Shown: in pieces, positions 13,068-24,203 of the stretch
How positions within the stretch are numbered: the first letter of the stretch is position 1
Layout: each line of letters starts with the position of its first letter
NCBI RefSeq assembly: GCF_003386795.1
Contig: NZ_QTUC01000001.1
Coordinates: 2,480,001-2,544,000, forward strand
Length of the DNA: 64,000 nt
Direction: 5' to 3'
DNA from: Thermasporomyces composti
Lineage (GTDB): Bacteria > Actinomycetota > Actinomycetes > Propionibacteriales > Actinopolymorphaceae
Translations under genes and position numbers: made by a program
The notes under the pieces: model-generated
The model's input: the letters and a program-made list of their open reading frames with translations, nothing else
What the model was told of the DNA's origin: nothing
The model's database searches: none

Positions 13068-14612
13068 ATGTCCGCGACGATGGATCGGCGCGCCCTGCTT
13101 CGTACAGGTGGGGTGCTCGCGGCTGGCGCCACCATCAACCTGCTTCCGGGGAACTTGCTTCCCGGGGTCGCGTTCGCCGCCCCGACCAACGGGGAGACGC
13201 GACAGACGAAGACGGTGACCGGGACGTTCCAGCCCAGCATCCCGGACTGGTACTACATCCCGGTCGACGTGCCGCATGGGGTGCGTCAGATCGAGGTCGT
13301 GTACTCCTACGACCGACCCTCCGTGCCCCCGGGTGTCCGGGGCAACGCCCTCGACATCGGCATGTTCGGACCCGAAGGCCACCAGGTCGGCACGCCTCGC
13401 GGCTTTCGTGGCTGGTCCGGCGGTTTCCGCGACCGGTTCACGATCAGTGCCTCGGAGGCGACACCTGGCTACATCGCCGGTCCGATCACGCCCGGTCGGT
13501 GGCACGTGATCCTCGGCCCGTACACCGTCGCGCCGCAAGGCATGAACTACCGCGTCGACATCACCGTGACGTTCGGACCGCCGGGGGCGCCGTTCCGGCC
13601 GAGCCCGGCGCCGACGACGGCGCCGGCCAAGGAGCGCGGCCGCGCGTGGTACCGAGGCGACGGGCACCTGCACACCATCCACTCCGACGGTCGGCGCACC
13701 CCGGAGGAGCTGGTCGCCGACGCGCGTGCGGCGGGACTGGACTTCGTGGTCTCCACCGAGCACAACACCCACAGCGCCCAGCTGGTCTGGGGTCAGTACG
13801 CCACCGACGACTTGCTGATCGTCAACGGTGAGGAGATCACCACCCGGTCCGGGCACTGGCTGGCGACCGGTCTGCCCGCCGGCAGCTGGATCGACTGGCG
13901 CTACCGCGCCGGGGATCCGAAGGACTTCCAACGCTTCGTGACGAAGGTGCACGCCCTGGGTGGCCTGGTCACCGCCGCGCACCCGTTCGCGAACTGCTTC
14001 GCGTGCGGCTACGAGTTCAGCTACCAGCTCGCCGACCTCGTCGAGGTGTGGAATGGGCCCTGGACGCCCGACGACGAGCAGGCCGTCTCGCTGTGGGACG
14101 GGCTGTTGCGCAGCGGCTGCTGGATCCCCGCGGTCGGCAACTCCGACGCGCATCGCCCGCCCAGTGACGGGTCCCCCGGCGACCTGGTGGGGTTGCCGCA
14201 GACCGTCGTCCTCGCCGACAGCTTGCGCACGCCGGACCTGCTGGCCGGACTGAAGGCGGGCCGCTGCTACCTGGCCGAGTCGGCGGAGGTCGAGGTGAGC
14301 TTCACCGCGTCGGCGGGCGGCACGTCGGCGGGGATCGGTGAGCGGCTCCCGGTCGACATCGGAGACCCGGTCACTGTCGAGGTGCGGGTGTCGGGGGTCC
14401 CAGAGACGACGGTGAGCATCCTTGACCAGAGTGGCCCGCGCGTGAGCGCTGACGTTCCGGCCGATGGCGCGCGGACGCTCACCTGGACCACCTACCCGAG
14501 ACACACTCAGTGGGTTCGCGTCGAGGTTCGGCGCGCGTCCGGCGGGCTCAACAGCACGACGCCGAACGCGATGGTGGCCATGACGAATCCCATCTTCCTC
14601 GGCCGTTCCTGA
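13068..14612 (+). CDS. Tat-exported CehA/McbA-type PHP metallohydrolase
   Basis: Predicted exported metal-dependent phosphoesterase-like protein of 514 aa. Start ATG 13068 follows GGGGGGAGG. A twin-arginine signal (DRRALLRTGG, then a hydrophobic stretch to about residue 38) suggests export of a folded metalloprotein. Residues about 40-180 form a beta-rich domain. The PHP core begins at about 200 with GHLHTIHSDG, followed by STEHNTH, VTAAHPFANC and AVGNSDAHR, all metal-binding motifs of the PHP/CehA superfamily. CehA and McbA themselves are carbaryl hydrolases, but most relatives have unknown substrates, probably esters or phosphodiesters. A short beta domain closes the chain. It follows the ABC exporter by 170 bp. 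Confidence 0.85.
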   Translation: MSATMDRRALLRTGGVLAAGATINLLPGNLLPGVAFAAPTNGETRQTKTVTGTFQPSIPDWYYIPVDVPHGVRQIEVVYSYDRPSVPPGVRGNALDIGMFGPEGHQVGTPRGFRGWSGGFRDRFTISASEATPGYIAGPITPGRWHVILGPYTVAPQGMNYRVDITVTFGPPGAPFRPSPAPTTAPAKERGRAWYRGDGHLHTIHSDGRRTPEELVADARAAGLDFVVSTEHNTHSAQLVWGQYATDDLLIVNGEEITTRSGHWLATGLPAGSWIDWRYRAGDPKDFQRFVTKVHALGGLVTAAHPFANCFACGYEFSYQLADLVEVWNGPWTPDDEQAVSLWDGLLRSGCWIPAVGNSDAHRPPSDGSPGDLVGLPQTVVLADSLRTPDLLAGLKAGRCYLAESAEVEVSFTASAGGTSAGIGERLPVDIGDPVTVEVRVSGVPETTVSILDQSGPRVSADVPADGARTLTWTTYPRHTQWVRVEVRRASGGLNSTTPNAMVAMTNPIFLGRS

Positions 14613-14770
14613 TCGACTCTGTCGAGAGCTCAGGCTCGCGGATGTACGTGGCTCGTCACGATCGACACGCGTTACGACGTCGTGGTGGCGGACCGTGACG
14701 CCGTGTCCAGGCAATGAGAAGTCCGTCTCATATTTTTGCCAGCCGCCTCGACGTTCTGTACTTTCGAGGC

Positions 14771-14850
14771 GCAGTCACGAGTGCCAGCGTCAAGCCCCGG
14801 CTTGCTGGCCGGCAACCCGCAGACGTGTGGGGTGCCCCGGGTGAGGACTC
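14771..14850 (+). promoter_or_regulatory. SAM-IV-type S-adenosylmethionine riboswitch
   Basis: The aptamer core is recognisable: GAGTGCCAGCGTCAAGC (from 14779), then CCCCGGCTTGCTGGCCGG with GGCAACC, and GTGGGGTGCCCCGGGTGAGGAC further on. The closing P1 stem pairs AGTC (14773-14776) with GACT (14846-14849). This order matches SAM-IV riboswitches of actinobacteria. An adjacent hairpin (about 14852-14873, one bulge) may be part of the pseudoknot or expression platform. Known SAM-IV elements turn sulfur-metabolism genes off when SAM is plentiful. It stands upstream of a leader peptide and the transporter operon. I worked from motif recall only, so the split between SAM-I and SAM-IV is less certain than the SAM call. 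Confidence 0.85.
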
Positions 14851-14897
14851 GGCCCGACCACGGCGGTCCGGGCAAACGTCGATCCTGAAGGAGCGTC

Positions 14898-14975
14898 ATG
14901 GTGCTGAACAGGTTGTTCACGCGCCGCCGTCACATCGATCTGCTCCGCGTCGCCAGCGCGTCCTGTTGTCGCTGA
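14898..14975 (+). CDS. Cys-containing leader peptide
   Basis: A 25-aa open frame with an AAGGAG site 4 nt upstream. It encodes TRRRHIDLLRVASASCCR at its C-terminus. Peptides ending RRRHIDLLRV...C are a recurrent class in front of sulfur-assimilation genes of actinobacteria. The two adjacent Cys codons just before the stop suggest ribosome stalling when cysteinyl-tRNA is scarce. It lies 48 bp after the SAM riboswitch and 201 bp before the permease start. The interval 14976-15176 has no gene, but partial inverted repeats that could form alternative hairpins. Confidence 0.75.
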   Translation: MVLNRLFTRRRHIDLLRVASASCCR

Positions 14976-15176
14976 CCTCGTCATCCCCGCTTCTCGCGAG
15001 GCGTCGCCGACGAACGTCAGCCGCCTGTTCCGGCGTCTCGGCTGTGGTCGCGCCTGATGCCGGCCCAGAAGCGAAGCCCTCCAAGCGACAAAGCGATTTT
15101 CCCTTATCTGCCGCGACCTTCCCGCTCGTCCGTTTTTGTCCCCTTGACGAAGCTCGATTTCTCACGGAGTCCGCGC

Positions 15177-15989
15177 ATGACGACGACCTCTGTGCCGTCG
15201 ACGGCATCACAGCGCCGCCGCGTGACGTTGGTCGCTGGCCAAGTGGCGCTGCTGTTCGGGCTGCTCGCGGTCGCGGAGCTTCTCGTCCGAACCGGGCTGG
15301 TGTCGAGCCTCTACCTCCCCGCCCCGACCAGTGTCGTGACCGAGATCGGGGAGCTTCTCGCCGGCGGTTCGGACTTCTACACCAACCTCAGCGTCACGCT
15401 CCGGGAGTTCATCACCGGATACCTCCTCGCGGTCGTCGGGGGGATCGCGACCGGGCTGTTCTTGGTGCTGGTGCCCCACGCCGAGAACTTCTTCCGACCG
15501 TTCCTCGCCGCTTTCATGGCGGTGCCGAAGGTGACGATCATCCCGCTGCTGACCCTGTGGTTCGGCCTTGGCCTCTCCCACAAGGTCATCATCGTCTTCC
15601 TGTTCTGCTTCTTCCCGATCGTCTACAACACCATCGCCGGGGTGAAGCAGACGTCTCCCGACCACGTGAAGGTGGCTCGGGCCTTGCGAGCTCGACGCCG
15701 GCAGATCATCGTCAAAGTGATCCTGCCCTCGGCGATCCCCACGATCCTCGCGGCGCTGCGAGTCGAAGCGGCGTCCGCGCTCGTCGGCGCCATCTTCGGC
15801 GAGATGGTCGCCTCGCGCGCGGGCCTGGGGAACGGCCTCAACGAGGCGACGGCACTCTACGACACGCCCAAGGCGTTCGCCCTGATCATCCTCATCACGA
15901 TCGTCTCGATCGTCAGCGTCTCCACCATCGACCTCCTGGAGAAGAAGGTCTTCCTCAAGTGGCGACCCTCGCCCGCGCGACTTCGGTGA
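15177..15989 (+). CDS. SsuC/TauC-like ABC transporter permease
   Basis: Inner-membrane permease of 270 aa for a nitrate/sulfonate/taurine-type importer. About six transmembrane helices are visible, the first at LVAGQVALLFGLLAVAELLV. The cytoplasmic coupling motif is present as VARALRARRRQIIVKVILPSAIPTILAALR. Start ATG 15177 has GGAG 9 nt upstream. The frame is open further 5' (to 15057), but that extension is low-complexity and has no site. It is the first structural gene after the riboswitch and leader peptide and is followed by the binding protein and the ATPase, so the operon is probably controlled by sulfur status. The substrate is inferred to be a sulfur compound only from this regulation. 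Confidence 0.88.
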   Translation: MTTTSVPSTASQRRRVTLVAGQVALLFGLLAVAELLVRTGLVSSLYLPAPTSVVTEIGELLAGGSDFYTNLSVTLREFITGYLLAVVGGIATGLFLVLVPHAENFFRPFLAAFMAVPKVTIIPLLTLWFGLGLSHKVIIVFLFCFFPIVYNTIAGVKQTSPDHVKVARALRARRRQIIVKVILPSAIPTILAALRVEAASALVGAIFGEMVASRAGLGNGLNEATALYDTPKAFALIILITIVSIVSVSTIDLLEKKVFLKWRPSPARLR

Positions 15990-16076
15990 CCGTGGCACCG
16001 GGGTGAGATCGACCAACCGGGTGAGAGCGAGATGGACGACGCGACGCGGACCCACATTGAGAGAAGGAACCCACCA

Positions 16077-17090
16077 GTGACGACGAAGCGTTCTCGCGCC
16101 ACCGCCTTGATCGGCGCCGTACTGTCGGCCGGGCTGCTGCTCGCCGGCTGCGGGGGAGGCAGCGGTAGCGGCGGCACGAATGACTCCGGACGCATCAAGA
16201 TCACCTACGCCTCCTTCGCCGGTGTCACCGGCATGCCGGCGAAGTTCGGCCAGGAGAAGGGATTCTTCGAGGCCGAGGGTCTCGACGTCACGTTCGTGAC
16301 CGCTGAGGACCCTGTGGCGATCGTGTCGAGCGGTGACGCCGAGATCGCCGACTGCGACACGACCTCAGCGCTGATCGCGGCGGGTAAGGGCGCCCCGATC
16401 AAGATCGTCTCCTCCATGTATCGCCACAAGGGCCCGTTCTACCTGATCAGCCGGCCCGACATCGATCGCGTCGAGGACCTCAAGGGCAAGACGGTCGGCA
16501 TCGCCCGCAAGGGCGCCGGCCTCGAGGCGTACGTGCGCGTGATCCTCAAGAAGCACGGGCTGACCGAGAAGGACGTCACCCTGGTCCCCAACGGCACGCA
16601 CCAGGAGGCGTACGCCAGCCTGACCAACGGCCAGGTCGACGCGACCATCATCCACGAGCCCTTCGTCTCCCTCGCCGAGGCCGAGGGGACGGGCAAGCTG
16701 CTCGCCCGGGGATGGGACTACCTCCCGACCTTCCACACCGGCGTCGAGATCGCCAGCGAGCGCTTCATCAAGGAGAACCCCGAGGCGCTGAAGAAGTTCC
16801 TCACCGCCTACTTCAAGGCCGCCTCCTACGCGAAGGCGCATCCGGAGGAGTACCTCGACTTCGTCGAGAAGCAGTCCGACGTCGACCGGGAGGTGCTGAA
16901 GGCGGCGCTGGAGCGGGAGGAGCCGATCTGGGAGAACGACCCACGGGTGGACCTCGACGACTTGCGTGACACCCAGCAGATCCAGAAGGACCTGGGATTC
17001 CAGGACACGGTCTACGACCCGGAGGACCTGGTCGACACCTCCCAGATCCCCAGTCCTCAGGAGATCTCCGCGAAGGCTGACGCGAGGTAG
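16077..17090 (+). CDS. SsuA/NMT1-like substrate-binding lipoprotein
   Basis: Periplasmic-type binding protein anchored as a lipoprotein, 337 aa. I chose GTG 16077, preceded by GAAGG at a spacing of about 10. An upstream ATG at 16032 is possible but would put a charged segment before the signal. The lipobox LLLAGC gives the lipidated Cys25, followed by a Gly/Ser linker. The mature domain has the NMT1/SsuA pattern: YASFAGVTGMPAKFGQEKGFF, then DTTSALIAAGKGAPI, LKGKTVGIARKG and QVDATIIHEPF. These proteins bind alkanesulfonates, taurine, thiamine precursors or related ligands. Ligand identity is open; the upstream SAM riboswitch favours an organosulfur compound. Confidence 0.88.
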   Translation: MTTKRSRATALIGAVLSAGLLLAGCGGGSGSGGTNDSGRIKITYASFAGVTGMPAKFGQEKGFFEAEGLDVTFVTAEDPVAIVSSGDAEIADCDTTSALIAAGKGAPIKIVSSMYRHKGPFYLISRPDIDRVEDLKGKTVGIARKGAGLEAYVRVILKKHGLTEKDVTLVPNGTHQEAYASLTNGQVDATIIHEPFVSLAEAEGTGKLLARGWDYLPTFHTGVEIASERFIKENPEALKKFLTAYFKAASYAKAHPEEYLDFVEKQSDVDREVLKAALEREEPIWENDPRVDLDDLRDTQQIQKDLGFQDTVYDPEDLVDTSQIPSPQEISAKADAR

Positions 17091-17096
17091 GCGACC

Positions 17097-17882
17097 ATGG
17101 CTGGCTTCACTATCCAGGGTGTATCGAAGGTCTTCCCAGGACCTCCGCCGACCCAGGCGCTCCAGGGCATCAACCTGACCATCGGGGAGGGTGAGTTCGT
17201 CACCTTCCTCGGTCCCAGCGGCTGTGGCAAGAGCACCTTGCTCGAGATCATGGCCGGCTTGCAGCAGCCGACCGAGGGAGTCGTTCGCCTCGGTGGCGAG
17301 GAGGTCCGTGAGCCGAGCGAGAAGGTCGGCGTGGTCTTCCAGGACCCCTCCCTCTTCCCGTGGCGGACGGTCATCCGCAACGTCGAGCTGGGGTTGGAGC
17401 TGCGCGGCGTGCCGAAGGAGGAGCGCCGCGCGGTGGCCCGCGAATACCTGGCCATGGTGGGGCTGGCGGGGGTGGAGACCAAGTACCCGCACCAGCTGTC
17501 AGGCGGCATGCGGCAACGGGTCGGGATCGCCCGGGCGTTGGCGACCAGCCCCGAGGTCCTGCTCATGGACGAGCCGTTCGGCGCGGTCGACCACCTGACC
17601 CGGCTGCAGCTGCAGCACGACCTGCTCGACATCTGGATGCGGCACCGCCGCACCATCGTCTTCGTCACCCACGACGTGTCGGAGGCGGTGTACCTCGCGG
17701 ACCGGGTCGTGCTCTTCTCGCCGAGCCCGGGTCGGGTCCGTCGCGTCTGGAACGTCGACGTGCCGCGTCCACGTGCCCGGGATGATCTCGCGCTGGTGAA
17801 CCTGCAGAACGAGATCTACGCCGAGATCACCAGCCTGACCGCCGAGCGGGACGCCCGGCTTGTGGAGGGTGCCCATGCGTGA
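17097..17882 (+). CDS. SsuB/TauB-like ABC transporter ATPase
   Basis: ATPase subunit of 261 aa for the same importer, starting at ATG 17097, 6 bp after the binding-protein stop. Walker A GPSGCGKST, Q-loop VVFQDPSLFPW, signature LSGGMRQR, Walker B VLLMDEPFGAVD and H-loop FVTHD are all present. The Q-loop with FPW and the DVSEAVYLADRV segment are typical of the nitrate/sulfonate/taurine (SsuB, TauB, ThiZ) group. The permease precedes the binding protein, so the order is C-A-B. Its stop overlaps the next gene by 8 bp, linking transport to the downstream enzymes. Confidence 0.92.
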   Translation: MAGFTIQGVSKVFPGPPPTQALQGINLTIGEGEFVTFLGPSGCGKSTLLEIMAGLQQPTEGVVRLGGEEVREPSEKVGVVFQDPSLFPWRTVIRNVELGLELRGVPKEERRAVAREYLAMVGLAGVETKYPHQLSGGMRQRVGIARALATSPEVLLMDEPFGAVDHLTRLQLQHDLLDIWMRHRRTIVFVTHDVSEAVYLADRVVLFSPSPGRVRRVWNVDVPRPRARDDLALVNLQNEIYAEITSLTAERDARLVEGAHA

Positions 17883-19248
17883 GATCGCCGGCACGCGGGT
17901 GGCGACCGAGGACGGCGCTGTCCGTCGTCCATACCCGGGCCTGGCCGAGCGGAGACGGCGGGAGCTCCTCGAACGTCAGAGCGCGATCCCTCCCGTGACC
18001 TCCCCGCACGCGGGCGCGCCGGCGGCGGTCCACCGCCGGCTGCGGGAGCGGATCGCCGCACTGCACGAGGCGCTGTGCGCGTTCTCCCTCGACCTGCACG
18101 CGCATCCCGAGCTCGCGTATGAGGAGCACCACGCCGCGGCCGCGCTGGCGGACCTGGTCGGCCGCTACGGCGTCGCCGCCGAGGTGGGCGCCTATGGGGT
18201 GCCGACGGCGGTGCGGGCGGTCGTGGGCACCGGGTCGCCCCGGGTCGCCGTGGTCGCCGAGTACGACGCGCTCCCGGGCATCGGCCACGCGTGCGGTCAC
18301 AACGTCATCGCCGCTAGCTCCGCGGGAGCGTTCCTGGCGCTGGCTGAGCTGCTCGCCGGACAGGACGCGCCCGCGGGAGCTGTCGAGCTGGTCGGCACGC
18401 CGGCGGAGGAAGGCGGTGGTGGGAAGCAACGAGTGCTTGACGCGGGCGGCTTCGACGAGATCGACTTCGCGATCATGGTCCACCCGGGCAACCTGGATCT
18501 CGCGGGCGGCCGCTCGCTCGGGTTCCGCCAGGTGGCGGTGACCTACCACGGTCTCGCCGCCCACGCCTCGACGGCGCCCCACCTCGGGGTCAACGCGCTC
18601 GACGCCGTGGTCGCGGCCTACAACGGCATCGCGCAGCTACGTCAGCACATCCTGCCGTCGGATCGGGTGCACGGCATCATCACCGACGGCGGACAGGCGC
18701 CGAACATCGTGCCGGCGAAGGCGTCGGCGGTGTTCTACGTGCGGTCGGCCGAGCTCGACACGCTCGCCGAGCTGCACACCCGGGTCGACGCGATCCTCCG
18801 AGCGGCTGCGCTCTCGACCGGCACGCGCGCGGAGATCACCTGGGACGCCGCCGCACCCTACCTTCCGCTTCGTCCCAACGAGCCGCTCGAGGCGCGCTAC
18901 GCCGTCCACCTCGCCGACCGTCGACGGGTGCTTCCGGGCTCCGCCCGTCCGGTGGAGACCGCCGCGTCGACCGACATGGGCAACGTGAGCGTCTACGTTC
19001 CCGCCATCCATCCTTCGGTGGCCATCGCGCCACCCGACGTGGCCAACCACACTCCGGAGTTCGCCGCGTACGCCGCGAGCGAGTCCGCCACGACCGGTAT
19101 CCGCGACGCGGCGATCGGCATCGCCTCGACCGTCGCGGACTTCCTCTACGACGAGCGGCTCCGCGCCGACGCGCGTGCCGACTTCGAGGCGCGCGGTGGC
19201 CGGCTCACGCTCGCCGACGCGCTGAACCCAGTCAAGGAGACACCGTGA
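17875..19248 (+). CDS. M20 family amidohydrolase / deacylase
   Basis: Zinc-dependent amidohydrolase of 457 aa, predicted to remove an N-acyl group from an amino-acid-like substrate in the cytoplasm. ATG 17875 lies inside the ATPase gene and has GGAGG just upstream. Metal and catalytic motifs are present: LDLHAHPELAYEE, EYDALPGIGHACGHN, GTPAEEGGGGK and VHPG. The lid/dimerisation domain has YHGLAAHASTAPHLGVNALDA, and the C-terminal part has ASTDMGNVSVYVPAIHP. The M20D group includes IAA-amino acid hydrolases, p-aminobenzoyl-glutamate hydrolases and the N-acetyl-cysteine-conjugate deacetylases of sulfur-salvage operons. Position between an SsuB-like ATPase and a flavin monooxygenase suggests deacylation of an N-acyl-S-substituted cysteine; that is inference. 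Confidence 0.85.
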   Translation: MREIAGTRVATEDGAVRRPYPGLAERRRRELLERQSAIPPVTSPHAGAPAAVHRRLRERIAALHEALCAFSLDLHAHPELAYEEHHAAAALADLVGRYGVAAEVGAYGVPTAVRAVVGTGSPRVAVVAEYDALPGIGHACGHNVIAASSAGAFLALAELLAGQDAPAGAVELVGTPAEEGGGGKQRVLDAGGFDEIDFAIMVHPGNLDLAGGRSLGFRQVAVTYHGLAAHASTAPHLGVNALDAVVAAYNGIAQLRQHILPSDRVHGIITDGGQAPNIVPAKASAVFYVRSAELDTLAELHTRVDAILRAAALSTGTRAEITWDAAAPYLPLRPNEPLEARYAVHLADRRRVLPGSARPVETAASTDMGNVSVYVPAIHPSVAIAPPDVANHTPEFAAYAASESATTGIRDAAIGIASTVADFLYDERLRADARADFEARGGRLTLADALNPVKETP

Positions 19249-19871
19249 TCGAACCCCTGCTCGACCACATCGTCTACGCCGCTCCTGACATCGACGAGCT
19301 CGTCGCGTCGTTCCGGGAGCGCACGGGCGTCGAGCCGCCGCTCGGTGGCCGCCACGTCGGCCGGGGCACCCGCAACTACCTGGTCGGCCTCGGCGGTCAG
19401 GTCTACCTCGAGCTCATCGGGCCCGACGACCCGACCCTGCCCGGCCGCGGGACGACGGCGTTCGGCATCGACAAGCTCACCGAGCCGCGCATCGCCGCCT
19501 GGGTGATCCGCCCGAAGGACTTCGACGAGCACATCGCCCGGGCACGCCGGAACGGCTACGACCCCGGCGTGGTCCGCCCACTGTCGCGGCGCAAGCCGGA
19601 CGGCACGCTGCTGGAGTGGCGGCTCACCCAGGAGCCGCCGAACAACCGGGACGGGCTGGTGCCGACGCTCATCGACTGGCTGGACGCCGAGCATCCCACC
19701 GCCAGTGGTCTGCCTGAGCTCACGCTGCGCTCGTTCGTCGGTTTCCACCCCGATCCGGACGCGGTGCGCGCCGACCTCGCCGCGCTCGGTGTCGAGCTGG
19801 AGGTGCGCCAGGGCGAACCCGGCTTCGAGGTGGTGCTCGACACCCCGAAGGGCGAGGTCATCTTGCGGTGA
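19245..19871 (+). CDS. VOC (glyoxalase-like) domain protein
   Basis: Protein of 208 aa in the vicinal-oxygen-chelate superfamily, Glyoxalase_3-like: LLDHIVYAAPDIDELVASF opens the first beta-alpha-beta unit with a likely metal ligand His. YLELIGPDD carries a second candidate ligand (Glu) and VGFHPDPDAVRADLAALG begins the second module. Start GTG 19245 overlaps the M20 stop (GTGA). The family includes isomerases, dioxygenases, epimerases and lyases acting on small oxyanion-stabilised substrates; the reaction here is unknown. Its fixed place between the deacylase and the LLM monooxygenase suggests a step in the same degradation route, or binding of an intermediate. Confidence 0.8.
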   Translation: MIEPLLDHIVYAAPDIDELVASFRERTGVEPPLGGRHVGRGTRNYLVGLGGQVYLELIGPDDPTLPGRGTTAFGIDKLTEPRIAAWVIRPKDFDEHIARARRNGYDPGVVRPLSRRKPDGTLLEWRLTQEPPNNRDGLVPTLIDWLDAEHPTASGLPELTLRSFVGFHPDPDAVRADLAALGVELEVRQGEPGFEVVLDTPKGEVILR

Positions 19872-19925
19872 CGGCGCCCTCGACGCTCGCGCACGAACCA
19901 CGTCACACGAGGAGAAGTCACGACC

Positions 19926-20912
19926 ATGGCCACCCCCACTCGCAAGCTCGGATTGACACTGCCCCAGCGTGGGGCGTTCTTCGGCGTGCTGACCGTCCCT
20001 GAGCTCGTCGAGACCGGTCACTTCGCCGACGAGTCAGGCGCGTACGACTCGGTGTGGATCGGCGACAGCCTGCTCGCCAAGCCACGCCCGGAGTCCATCG
20101 CGTTGTTCGGGTCGCTCGCGGCGGTCACGCGTCGGGTGACCCTCGCCGTCGGCTGCATGGCGAGCTTCCCGGTCCGGGATCCCATCCTGCTCGCCGACCA
20201 GTGGGCCACCCTCGACCAGATCTCGCAGGGCCGCATGCTGCTCGCGGTGTGCACCGGGATCGTCAAGGCCAAGGACGCGTCCGAACGTGAGGGCGCGCTC
20301 TACGGCGTGACCGACAAGTCTCGGGCCGGCCGGTTGGAGGAGAACATCGAGATCCTGCGTCGGCTCTGGACAGAGGACAACGTGACGTTCCACGGGCGCT
20401 ACCGCAGCTTCGAGAACGTCACGGTGCTGCCCAAGCCGGTGCAGAATCCGCCGCCGATCCACATCGCCTCCAACCCGAACCCCGCCTACGGGTACGAGCG
20501 GGCGCTGCGTCGCGTCGCCCGGCTGGCCGACGGCTGGATGACGACTCGCAAGCGGCCGGAGTACCTCACCAAGCTGTGGCCCGCCATCCAGGGCTACCTG
20601 CGCGAGGAGGGTCGCGACCCGGAGAACTTCCCGGTCGTGGCGTACCACAACGTCAACATCAACCCCGACCAGGACGCCGCGTACGAGGAGAGCTACCGCT
20701 TCCTCGGCGAGTACTACGGTCCGGTCTTCACCGAGGAGGACACCCGCTACTGGACGGCGGCCGGCTCGGTCGAGCAGGTGATCGCCCAGATCAACGAGCT
20801 CTACGAGGCCGGCGCCACTGAGGTGACGTTGCGCATCACCTCCTGGGACTGGCGGCGCCAGCTCAAGCTCCTCACCGAGGAGGTCGCGCCCGCGGTCCGT
20901 TCCGCCGGCTGA
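19926..20912 (+). CDS. LLM-class flavin-dependent monooxygenase
   Basis: Luciferase-like monooxygenase of 328 aa (FMN or F420 dependent) with a TIM-barrel fold. It starts at ATG 19926 after GAGGAG. Family patterns seen: LGLTLPQRGAFFG, GAYDSVWIGDSLL, RVTLAVGCMASFPVRDPILLADQWATLDQIS, GRMLLAVCTG, RRLWTEDNVTFHGRY and ADGWM. Relatives include SsuD alkanesulfonate monooxygenase, bacterial luciferases, nitrilotriacetate monooxygenase and N-acetyl-S-substituted-cysteine monooxygenases. As the last gene of the riboswitch-controlled operon (a perfect terminator follows), a C-S bond-cleaving oxygenation is the best guess. No flavin reductase gene is present in the operon, so it must use an unlinked reductase, or F420H2. 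Confidence 0.88.
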   Translation: MATPTRKLGLTLPQRGAFFGVLTVPELVETGHFADESGAYDSVWIGDSLLAKPRPESIALFGSLAAVTRRVTLAVGCMASFPVRDPILLADQWATLDQISQGRMLLAVCTGIVKAKDASEREGALYGVTDKSRAGRLEENIEILRRLWTEDNVTFHGRYRSFENVTVLPKPVQNPPPIHIASNPNPAYGYERALRRVARLADGWMTTRKRPEYLTKLWPAIQGYLREEGRDPENFPVVAYHNVNINPDQDAAYEESYRFLGEYYGPVFTEEDTRYWTAAGSVEQVIAQINELYEAGATEVTLRITSWDWRRQLKLLTEEVAPAVRSAG

Positions 20913-20962: not shown

Positions 20963-20994
20963 TGGCCGGTCCCTGACGAGGCAGGGACCGGCCA
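20963..20994 (+). terminator. Strong terminator of the sulfur-scavenging operon
   Basis: A perfect 13-bp stem (20963-20975 with 20982-20994) with a 6-nt loop stands 50 bp after the LLM stop. It marks the operon end and separates the downstream FAD oxidoreductase. Confidence 0.85.
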
Positions 20995-21105: not shown

Positions 21106-22746
21106 GTGAAGCGGGAGACGCGTGCGGACGTTCTCGTCGTCGGCGGAGGACTGGGCGGCGTGGCCGCGGCGCTCACCGCGCTGCGGCTGGGTCGACGGGT
21201 GGTGCTCACCGAGGAGACCGACTGGTTGGGCGGCCAGCTCACCAGTCAGGCCGTCCCACCGGACGAGAACCCCTGGATCGAGAGCCGGTACGCCTCACCC
21301 AGCTACCGGAGCCTGCGCTGGCGGATCCGCGAGTACTACCGGCGCAACTACCCCTTGACGACGGCGGCGGCAGCCGACCCACTGCTCAACCCTGGCGGGG
21401 GCTTCGTGAGCCCACTGTGCCACGAGCCGAGGGTTGCCGTCGCGGCGATCCACGAGATGCTGGCGCCGTACGTGACCTCGGGCCGCTTGACGGTCCTGCT
21501 CGAGCACGTGCCGGTCGCCGTCCACAGCACCGGCGACGTCGTCGACGCCGTCACCGTACGCGGACGGGACGGCGAGGAGCTCACCATCAGCGCGCCGTAC
21601 GTCGTGGACGCCACCGAGCTCGGCGACCTCCTCGAGCTCGGTGGTGTCGAGCACGTCATCGGGGCGGAGGGCCAGGACGAGACCGGTGAGCCCAAGGCGC
21701 CCCCAGCGGCCAACCCGCTCGACCAACAGGCCATCACCTGGTGTTTCCCGGTGGAGTACCGGCCGGGCGAGGACCACACGATTGATCCACCGCCCAGCTA
21801 CGAGCACTGGAAGACGCACGCCGAGCCGTTCTGGCCGGGTCCTCAGCTGTCCTGGCACGACGTCGATCCGGAGACGTTGGAGCATCGGTACCGACCGCTG
21901 TTCAGCGGTGAGGACGTCGATCCCCGGGACTTCTGGCACTACCGCCGGATCGTGGCCGCCGCGAACTTCCGACCTGGCACGGTCCGCTTCGACGTGACGC
22001 TGGTCAACTGGCCGCAGAACGACTACTGGGAGACGCCCATCCTCGGCGTCGACGAAAAGACCCGGCAACGCGCTCTCCAACGCAGCCGGGAGCTCTCGCT
22101 GTCGCTGCTGTACTGGATGCAGACCGAGGCGCCCCGGCACGACGGAGGCACCGGCTACCCGGGCCTCCGGCTCCGTCCCGACCTGGTCGGCACCAGCGAC
22201 GGTCTCGCCAAGCGTCCGTACATTCGCGAGGCGCGCCGCATCCGGGCCGAGTTCACCGTGCTGGAGCAGCACGTCGGTGTGGACGCCTCAGGCGGCCGAG
22301 GGCCCGAGCAGTTCGAGGACTCCGTCGGGCTCGGCAACTACCGCATTGACCTCCACCCCAGCACTGGTGGTCGCACCTACGTCGACATCGACTCCTACCC
22401 GTTCCAGATTCCGCTCGGTGCGCTCATCCCGGTCCGGGTGGAGAACCTGCTGCCGGCCAACAAGAACATCGGCACGACCCACATCACGAACGGTTGCTAC
22501 CGCTTGCACCCGGTCGAGTGGGCGATCGGCGAGGCGGTGGGAGCACTCGTGGCCTATTGCCTCGACGTCGGAGAGCGGCCGCGGGGAGTGCGGGCGAACG
22601 CCGCCCGACGCGCCGACTACCAGCGGTTGTTGCGTGAGCGGCTGGGCATCGAGCTCGCCTGGCCGCCCGAGATTCGGAGCTTGCCGACCGCGCGCCGGCC
22701 GGCCTACCCCCAGCTCGTCGAGGACCCGCCGACCCACGTCTGGTGA
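21106..22746 (+). CDS. FAD-dependent oxidoreductase
   Basis: Flavoprotein of 546 aa of the FAD_oxidored (PF12831-like) type. The N-terminal dinucleotide-binding motif is [19 protein letters not shown], followed by [12 protein letters not shown], which is characteristic of this group. A second conserved block, [14 protein letters not shown], is the usual FAD-contacting strand. The C-terminus has [32 protein letters not shown], the family's FAD-closing helix. Start ATG... the codon used is GTG 21106 with GGGAGGGCCGAG upstream. The substrate is unknown. It lies after the terminator of the sulfur operon and so is probably a separate unit, possibly transcribed together with lpd. Confidence 0.82.
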
Positions 22747-22754
22747 GCCGTTGA

Positions 22755-22776
22755 CGGCGCCCCGTCGGGGCCGCCG
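22755..22776 (+). terminator. Hairpin between FAD oxidoreductase and lpd
   Basis: A nine-pair stem with one bulge and a 3-nt loop (22755-22763 with 22767-22776) lies 8 bp after the stop codon. Confidence 0.5.
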
Positions 22777-22802
22777 CGTTGCGGAGGAGCATAATCGGCG
22801 GC

Positions 22803-24203
22803 ATGAGCGAGGCCTTCGACGTTGTGGTGCTCGGTGCTGGTCCCGGTGGGTACGTCGCGGCGATCCGCGCGGCGCAGCTTGGTCTGCGGACCGCCGTCGT
22901 GGAGGAACGCTACTGGGGTGGTGTGTGCCTGAACGTCGGGTGCATTCCCTCTAAGGCGTTGCTGCGCAATGCCGAGATCGCCCACGTGGTCACCAAGGAG
23001 GCGGCGACCTTCGGGATCAACGTCGAGGGCCGGCTCAGCCTGGACTACGGCGTCGCCTACGACCGAAGCCGCAAGGTCGCCGAGGGCCGGGCCAAGGGTG
23101 TCCACTTCTTGATGAAGAAGAACGGCATCACCGAGATCGATGGCTGGGGCAGTTTCCTCGACGACCACACGCTGCGAGTGACCCGTCTGGACGGGGGAAG
23201 TGACACGGTGAGCTTCCGGCACTGCATTATCGCCACCGGTGCCAAGGCGAGGTTGCTTCCCGGGACGACCATCTCCGAGCGCGTGGTGACCTACGAGGAG
23301 CAGATCCTCAGCCGCGAGCTGCCGAGGAGCATCATCATCGCCGGCGCGGGTGCCATCGGTGTCGAGTTCGCCTACGTCCTGAACAGCTACGGCGTCGACG
23401 TCACGCTCGTGGAGTTCCTCGATCGCATCATGCCGACGGAGGACGAGGAGGTCTCCGCCGAGCTGGCCCGCCGCTACCGCCGGATGGGTATCAGGATGCT
23501 CACCTCGACACGCGTGGACGCGGTGGAGGATCTCGGCACCTCGGTCCGGGTGACCGTCTCCAGCGGCGGGCAGTCGCAGGTGCTCGAGGCAGACCGAGTG
23601 CTCCAGGCGCTGGGCTTCCAACCGCGCGTCGAGGGCTATGGGCTGGAGAACGCCGGCGTTCGGCTGACCGACCGCGGCGCGATCGACATCGACGCGCGCT
23701 GCCGCACCAGCGTGCCGCACATCTTCGCGATCGGTGATGTGACGGCCAAGCTCATGCTGGCGCACGCGGCGGAGGCGATGGGCGTCGTGGCGGCCGAGAC
23801 GATCGCCAACGCGGAGACCATGGAGCTTGACTACCGCATGATCCCGCGGGCGACGTTCTGCCAGCCACAGATCGCGAGCTTCGGCTGGACCGAGGCGCAG
23901 GCCCGCGAACAGGGGTTCGACGTCCGAGTGGCGAAGTTCCCGTTCACCGCGAACGGCAAGGCGCAGGGCATCGGGGACCCCGTCGGGTTCGTCAAGGTGG
24001 TGAGCGACGCGAGGTATGGCGAGATCCTCGGTGCCCACATGATCGGGCCCGACGTCACCGAGCTGCTCCCCGAGCTGACCCTGGCTCAGCAGTGGGACCT
24101 CACGGTCCACGAGGTGGCGCGCAACATCCACGCGCACCCGACGCTGAGCGAGGCGGTCAAGGAGGCGGTGCACGGACTGGCGGGACACTTCATCAACCTC
24201 TGA
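22803..24203 (+). CDS. lpd: Dihydrolipoyl dehydrogenase
   Basis: E3 flavoenzyme of 466 aa, reoxidising dihydrolipoamide of 2-oxoacid dehydrogenase or glycine-cleavage complexes with NAD. It has the FAD motif [19 protein letters not shown], the redox-active disulfide [13 protein letters not shown], the NAD motif [37 protein letters not shown] and the C-terminal catalytic His-Glu in [16 protein letters not shown] 22803 gives the normal family start; GGAGGA is 14 nt away, longer than usual. A -10-like CATAAT at 22790-22795 leaves open a leaderless transcript. No other complex subunits are adjacent. Confidence 0.95.

Follow-up and report, generated by a model that had tools for sequence, protein, structure and literature searches.

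This analysis concerns a six-gene operon of the actinobacterium Thermasporomyces composti and the RNA leader that precedes it. The operon occupies positions 15177–20912 of a 64,000-nucleotide stretch of contig NZ_QTUC01000001.1 (2,480,001–2,544,000; hereafter the window, to which coordinates refer unless stated otherwise), and all of its genes and RNA features are on the forward strand. The genes encode, in order, an SsuC/TauC-like permease of an ATP-binding cassette (ABC) importer (15177–15989; PF00528, BPD_transp_1, 100.4 bits), an NMT1-type substrate-binding lipoprotein (SBP; 16077–17090; PF09084, 129 bits), a TauB/SsuB-like ABC ATPase (17097–17882; PF00005, ABC_tran, 122.6 bits), a PM20D2-like M20 amidohydrolase (17875–19248; TIGR01891, 212.3 bits, cut-off 153.75), a vicinal oxygen chelate (VOC) protein of the Glyoxalase_3 family (19245–19871; PF13468, 131.1 bits), and a luciferase-like (LLM) oxidoreductase (19926–20912; PF00296, Bac_luciferase, 158.9 bits; TIGR03619, 158.2 bits). 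The SBP and ATPase genes are separated by 6 nt, the ATPase and M20 genes overlap by 8 nt, the M20 and VOC genes overlap by 4 nt, and 54 nt lie between the VOC stop and the LLM start. These coordinates and the family searches agree with a preliminary description of the window, which had named the same six genes, coupled by overlaps from the ATPase through the VOC gene. They also bear out its view that the importer is of the NMT1 type, that a VOC protein is added, and that an N-acetyltransferase is lacking: the searches found no such family among the six operon genes.

The SBP contains the motif LLAGC, which we take to be its lipobox; its nearest solved chains by sequence include THI5/THI13 and a formyl-aminopyrimidine-binding protein, at weak scores (43–49 bits). 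The solved chain nearest to the M20 protein by sequence is PM20D2 (222 bits, versus 39 for YxeP), and its residues C140, H142, E178, E179, H203, and H392, presumably metal ligands, were invariant across eight sequences. VOC residues H8 and E56 were invariant across 17 sequences; the predicted VOC structure had a mean predicted local distance difference test (pLDDT) score of 80.3, with five uneven models and weak matches to HPPD, methylmalonyl-CoA epimerase, and 3p8a. Downstream of the LLM gene lies a perfect 13-bp hairpin (20963–20994; arms 20963–20975 and 20982–20994), which folded better than all 200 shuffled sequences (z −4.81; 0/200). The perfect stem of the terminator proposed in the preliminary description was thus found; because the hairpin has no T tract, terminator-like hairpin is the safer name.

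The region upstream of the permease gene contains two sulfur-type RNA elements. A SAM-IV riboswitch aptamer (RF00634) at 14773–14884 scored 91.9 bits with cmscan (gathering score 38) and covered the full model (positions 1–116); it is the only SAM-IV in the 64-kb window and one of two in the 4.37-Mb genome, the second of which precedes an aminotransferase gene judged by eye to be cysteine-desulfurase-like. Between the riboswitch and the permease gene, starting 13 nt past the riboswitch end, is a leader-peptide open reading frame (ORF) of 25 codons (14898–14975; MVLNRLFTRRRHIDLLRVASASCCR, followed by a stop codon). This ORF is preceded by GGAG and ends in Cys-Cys-Arg, with tandem Cys codons near the stop. 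It matched NF042934, the NCBI "putative leader peptide" model, with 33.0 bits (cut-off 27), the best of eight matches in the genome, of which two exceeded the cut-off. It also weakly matched the Ms4527A and Ms5788A Cys-rich leader families, below their cut-offs. In the window, a regular-expression search for the leader core matched this ORF only; among the other loci that the search covered, it matched the same leader in L001, which duplicates this region, and an unrelated ORF in L167. Because the leader ORF passes the NF042934 cut-off in addition to the presence of SAM-IV, the operon stands behind two sulfur-type sensors in series. A hairpin starting at the stop codon of this ORF (14971–15021; arms 14971–14982 and 15009–15021; minimum free energy −23.6 kcal/mol for the stretch alone) is a candidate attenuator element and would have the placement that attenuation needs. 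The 306-nt leader as a whole folded no better than shuffled sequences (z −0.34).

Of the other leader-type matches in the genome, matches two through five scored 28.8 bits (above the cut-off) and 26.4, 25.2, and 24.5 bits (below it), and precede genes for 3-mercaptopyruvate-sulfurtransferase-like, flavin-reductase-like, DszC/SfnB-like, and dicarboxylate/amino-acid-symporter-like proteins, all four of which were below the cut-offs of their best-matching equivalog models. The comparison covered matches one through five of the eight; the last three scored 12.7–17.8 bits. The flavin-reductase-like and DszC/SfnB-like genes share one locus (L208; positions 4023001–4042000 of the same genome), which contains two below-cut-off leader matches and also encodes an LLM of the NtaA/DmoA family (512.9 bits, cut-off 279.7), a binding protein of the peptide/nickel type, and an ATPase (by eye). 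L208 is a second organosulfur-type locus, of a more familiar kind, and its flavin-reductase-like protein is a candidate in-trans partner for the operon LLM. The sulfur-type RNA control asserted in the preliminary description is supported, and the evidence for it is stronger than was given there, because a Cys leader that it had not listed backs the riboswitch and because leader matches precede sulfurtransferase-like, DszC/SfnB-like, and flavin-reductase-like genes.

SAM-IV was present in 65 of 147 genomes of the order, T. composti included. We fetched 20 of these stretches and read 19 (L165 was left out); L121–L150 were not read gene by gene. Here and below, neighbor names were assigned largely by eye from general knowledge unless a family search is cited, and the ORF picker can take a wrong frame (it missed a UbiD gene that was found later). 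According to family searches, the genes behind SAM-IV in L156 encode a cysteine dioxygenase and an aminotransferase that is SufS-like but under the SufS cut-off, and those in L171 encode two alkanesulfonate-monooxygenase-like LLMs (200.1 and 430.9 bits, cut-off 518.2) and a family-5 binding protein. In L172 (genome G670), SAM-IV at 521–638 precedes a PotD-like binding protein and hydantoinase B (family search); this locus may salvage a hydantoin or lactam that contains sulfur. The TIGR04030 and TIGR04027 families presumably occur together, and their co-occurrence was seen in Paracoccus. In L179 (genome G664), a SAM-IV on the minus strand of contig C49 (61890–61998) precedes a CMD/alkylhydroperoxidase protein that matched TIGR04030 (235.9 bits, cut-off 233.15), and an iron-complex-type importer also lies behind it (by eye); this locus links the TIGR04027–04030 gene set to sulfur. 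In Streptomyces lividans, a cysteine desulfurase gene lies downstream of SAM-IV (PMC8079986). SAM-IV stands before sulfur genes often, not demonstrably always.

A scan of genome contigs by LLM alignment yielded 13 loci, comprising three full operons, two Pseudonocardia loci, and eight distant loci. Prauserella endophytica (L108), Prauserella flavalba (L109), and Sciscionella marina (L112) share all six genes in unchanged order, with 59–78% identity per protein, and because the order is the same in these three genomes the six-gene set is more than chance. The neighborhood search proposed in the preliminary description, for M20–VOC–LLM beside an SsuABC-like importer, thus showed that all six genes are conserved as a set in three further species. 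The genes flanking the operon in the window are a CehA/McbA family metallohydrolase directly upstream of the riboswitch (13068–14612; 243.8 bits, cut-off 80) and, downstream of the 3' hairpin at 21106–24203, an FAD-dependent oxidoreductase (PF12831) and a dihydrolipoyl dehydrogenase. None of them had a match in the three 21-kb orthologous loci; the unit is therefore the six genes, and both flanks lie outside it. In the two Pseudonocardia loci (L110 and L111), VOC–LLM stands behind an SSF symporter, UbiD, UbiX, and a metabolite/H+-type symporter, and the LLM is 73–74% identical. Family searches supported UbiD (349.2 bits, cut-off 244.85) and UbiX (233.8 bits, cut-off 108.9) in L110; L111 was read by eye. 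The eight distant LLMs were 32–43% identical and had mixed neighbors, with none readable in L119. LLM matches at E ≤ 1e-45 were found in 3 of 396 sampled genomes of the phylum, including T. composti itself; at E ≤ 1e-40 the only match among 196 genomes of the order was its own, with none in seven other listed genomes of its family. Probably, either the operon entered this lineage or the surrounding lineages lost it. The idea of horizontal transfer rests on this distribution, as the GC content and third-position GC content of the operon genes showed no contrast with those of neighboring genes.

Searches with single operon proteins revealed parallel gene contexts. The VOC protein matched 23 of 296 genomes of the class at E ≤ 1e-10, T. 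composti included, and only T. composti and genome G265 had an M20 gene beside it. Seventeen of the 22 other VOC genomes were viewed with approximately 9-kb flanks where the contig allowed, and five (G081, G114, G235, G273, and G288) with 1.5 kb. In G265, M20 (53%) and VOC (44%) genes adjoin a TIGR04027 LLM (502.9 bits, cut-off 412.9) and a peptide-type importer (by eye), so the M20–VOC pair also partners another LLM and another importer. Beyond G265, operon-type neighbors of VOC were limited to a peptide-SBP fragment with a G265-like LLM in L087 and one weak ATPase match in L085. In genome G531, an LLM 40% identical to that of the operon occurs with a TauABC-like importer, a gamma-glutamyltranspeptidase-family protein, and an M24-type hydrolase, which again brings importer, hydrolase, and LLM together. 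Among plasmids, 19 records had a VOC match and five neighborhoods were viewed: two Ti plasmids (L173 and L176) carry an importer and an amidohydrolase-family protein followed by VOC, VOC is flanked by genes for cystathionine beta-lyase and hypotaurine aminotransferase on a Paracoccus seriniphilus plasmid (L175), and nothing clear was seen around VOC on the Comamonas and Nocardia plasmids. The VOC proteins of L173, L175, and L176 are approximately 30–33% identical to that of the operon. VOC was rejected as a sole marker because it is not diagnostic, even though a role in amide or sulfur metabolism would suit two of these contexts. M20 matched 96 of 396 genomes of the phylum at E ≤ 1e-30, T. composti included, and was also rejected as a marker: 18 further loci with wide flanks (L059–L076) lacked VOC and had only scattered weak ATPase matches and one 30% LLM fragment approximately 3 kb away (L074). 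Rfam was run on 15 of these 18 loci, and in seven of them (L059, L061–L064, L068, and L070) a tRNA-Sec gene lay approximately 1–4 kb from M20; the M20 proteins there are 54–58% identical to that of the operon. In those actinobacterial loci, a PM20D2-like enzyme may have a connection with selenocysteine functions. Another locus, on the Sinorhizobium meliloti symbiosis plasmid pSymA (L107; CP130049.1, 41167–74072), contains the F420-biosynthesis genes npdG, cofD, cofC, and cofH beside an LLM, an ArgE-type deacylase, a CoA-transferase, and xanthine-dehydrogenase-type genes.

Against three named LLM families, the operon protein scored well short of the cut-off: 45.5 bits versus 518.2 for SsuD (TIGR03565), 64.5 versus 382.95 for SfnG, and 46 versus 279.7 for NtaA/DmoA (TIGR03860). 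In its predicted structure (pLDDT 88.7), a flavin mononucleotide (FMN) luciferase (Z 33.4) and a coenzyme F420-dependent alcohol dehydrogenase (Z 33.2) matched about equally; SsuD, MsuD, and SfnG were lower (approximately 29), as were CmoJ and RutA (approximately 27). Fold matching was rejected as a means of choosing between FMN and F420, because both kinds match about equally well.

We consider it fairly probable that the operon serves the scavenging of an amide-linked organosulfur compound induced by sulfur starvation. The gene content and order, their conservation, and both RNA elements speak for this, and because of the double sulfur-type leader a sulfur-starvation function is most likely in this bacterium. 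The rarity of both elements in the genome, two SAM-IV riboswitches and two over-cut-off leaders, also counts in its favor, as do the genes behind the next four leader-type matches, the SAM-IV contexts of L156 and L171, and the M20–VOC pair of G265. We infer that the two sensors would act by allowing expression when sulfur is short: low S-adenosylmethionine would be sensed by the riboswitch, and low charged Cys-tRNA by translation of the Cys-rich leader peptide. The importer would then take up the amide-linked compound, and the M20 enzyme would hydrolyze the amide. Next, the LLM would oxidize the sulfur-bearing fragment so that the C–S bond breaks, with release of sulfite or a thiol, and the target of the VOC protein might be a by-product or a labile intermediate. 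Reduced FMN would be supplied in trans, for example by the flavin-reductase-like protein encoded behind a Cys-leader-type match in the same genome. If this is correct, the operon is an additional sulfur-salvage route made of parts to which no substrate is assigned (a PM20D2-like M20 enzyme, a Glyoxalase_3 VOC protein, and an LLM outside the SsuD, SfnG, and NtaA/DmoA families), and VOC–LLM and TIGR04027-type clusters become linked to sulfur. A broader proposal, which we regard as speculative, is that VOC–LLM forms a portable C–S-cleaving module for a new organosulfur class and can be supplied in two ways, through an importer and an amide hydrolase as in this operon or through symporters and a UbiD/UbiX decarboxylase as in Pseudonocardia; in T. 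composti it would be gated by SAM-IV and the Cys leader and run only when methionine- and cysteine-derived signals are both low.

A number of results weigh against a sulfur-scavenging role, which is weakest at three points: whether the cofactor is F420 or FMN, the UbiD/UbiX context, and the orthologous operons without sulfur sensors. No SAM-IV over the gathering score was found in L108, L109, or L112; no Cys leader was found there by regular expression, and there was no NF042934 match near the operon by coordinate, contig names not being mapped. Instead, a divergent GntR-type gene, 70% identical between two genera, adjoins the permease gene in all three, its GntR and FCD domains confirmed by family search for L112. 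The UbiD/UbiX context of the Pseudonocardia VOC–LLM points to an aromatic acid. The SBP scored 130 bits against TIGR01728 (SsuA_fam), below the cut-off of 163.5, and no flavin reductase is encoded in the operon. The best NCBIfam match of the LLM is a near miss to TIGR03619, a family named as F420-dependent (158.2 versus 166.9); distant relatives adjoin F420-biosynthesis genes on S. meliloti pSymA (28% identity) and in a Dehalococcoidia bacterium (32%); and CofD is encoded in the T. composti genome (363.7 bits, cut-off 257.45). A search of positions 14600–15400 turned up neither an intrinsic terminator nor a sigma-70-type promoter match. Finally, several of the 19 SAM-IV stretches (e.g., L154, L160, L162, and L166–L170) had no clear sulfur gene by eye, for which wrong-frame ORF picking is perhaps partly to blame.

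Some of these results would be explained if the operon degraded an aromatic or heteroaromatic amide, with sulfur not required and the sulfur-type leader captured secondarily in this lineage. The association of VOC–LLM with UbiD/UbiX, SSF, and the metabolite/H+-type symporter in two Pseudonocardia, the GntR/FCD control of the three other full operons, the importer–hydrolase–LLM locus of G531, and another distant LLM near a xanthine-dehydrogenase-type protein (by eye) are all in keeping with such a substrate. Neighborhoods pointing to a non-sulfur substrate were what the preliminary description had named as counting against its proposal, and the two Pseudonocardia loci are, in part, of that kind. 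However, two sulfur-type RNA elements upstream make little sense for a sulfur-free substrate, and we think this explanation unlikely. The same leader argues against the salvage of a thiamine or pyrimidine precursor, which we consider highly improbable. ThiXYZ/YlmB likewise combines an NMT1 importer with an M20 deformylase, and the nearest solved chains of the SBP include THI5/THI13 and the formyl-aminopyrimidine-binding protein, but those matches are weak, and no thiamine pyrophosphate (TPP) riboswitch reached threshold in the window, whereas SAM-IV and the Cys leader reached theirs. To our knowledge, thiamine-precursor salvage includes no LLM or VOC protein, so these would have no place in the pathway.

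An alternative that is compatible with a sulfur role is that the LLM depends on F420 and works as a reductase or dehydrogenase rather than a monooxygenase, in which case it would carry out no oxidative C–S cleavage. The TIGR03619 near miss, the F420 enzymes among the nearest solved structures by both sequence and fold, and the F420 genes beside relatives and in the T. composti genome favor this. Nevertheless, we regard it as rather doubtful: an FMN luciferase ties with the F420 enzyme in the fold comparison, a flavin-reductase-like gene lies behind a Cys-leader-type match in the same genome, and no F420 gene was recognized by eye in the parts read of L108, L110, L111, and L112, the five close loci except L109. 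The preliminary description had suggested a mercapturate-like N-acylated thioether or another organosulfur compound; in the mercapturate reading, an N-acetyl-S-substituted cysteine would be taken up, deacetylated, and cleaved at the C–S bond as in the Bacillus ytm/scm pathways. The same types of parts are present (importer, TIGR01891-type M20, and LLM), and the Bacillus pathways run via N-acetylated intermediates (PMC12757645, PMC10863075). The comparison did not support this mapping, since the LLM score falls far short of the NtaA/DmoA cut-off, the M20 enzyme is closest to PM20D2 rather than YxeP, the operon is without an acetyltransferase, and its importer is NMT1-type; mercapturates would also leave the UbiD/UbiX context unexplained. 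We therefore judge mercapturates to be a quite improbable substrate; what stands is a sulfur-type-controlled operon of importer, M20, VOC, and LLM genes.

In the titles and abstract beginnings of the open-access literature searched, no description of the six-gene set was found. Among known systems, it can be compared with the Bacillus subtilis alkylcysteine salvage clusters ytm/ytn, yha, and scm. The likeness lies in the presence of an importer, an M20 amidohydrolase, and an LLM-type flavoenzyme in a sulfur-salvage cluster. In the characterized Bacillus pathways, alkylcysteines are acetylated, cleaved, and deacetylated (PMC12757645, PMC10863075). In contrast, the operon described here has an NMT1-type importer, no N-acetyltransferase, an added VOC gene, and SAM-IV and a Cys leader upstream. 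Its M20 protein exceeds the TIGR01891 cut-off, yet its nearest solved chain is PM20D2, not YxeP; its LLM falls short of TIGR03860 (46 versus 279.7), the family to which CmoJ and ScmK presumably belong. The SsuABCD and TauABC sulfonate systems, which are used under sulfur limitation, resemble it in importer superfamily and LLM fold. It differs from SsuABCD in that both the SBP (130 versus 163.5 for TIGR01728) and the LLM (45.5 versus 518.2 for TIGR03565) are below the cut-offs, and in the addition of M20 and VOC. The operon would thus work like organosulfur salvage but fails membership in both ytm/scm and SsuABCD. The KPN_01854/KPN_01858/Avi_7169 set (TIGR04027, TIGR04028, and TIGR04030) shares with it the related VOC and M20 genes beside the TIGR04027 LLM of G265 and the SAM-IV before TIGR04030 in G664; the importer type and the LLM differ, and the NCBIfam names of the set give no substrate. 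Finally, the leader ORF resembles the mycobacterial Cys-rich leader peptides, short ORFs with Cys codons upstream of operons (Canestrari et al. 2020, as cited in PMC9094748). Here, however, a SAM-IV riboswitch stands ahead of the leader ORF; if both act as proposed, a single 5' leader carries two chemically different sulfur sensors, an aptamer and a Cys leader peptide.

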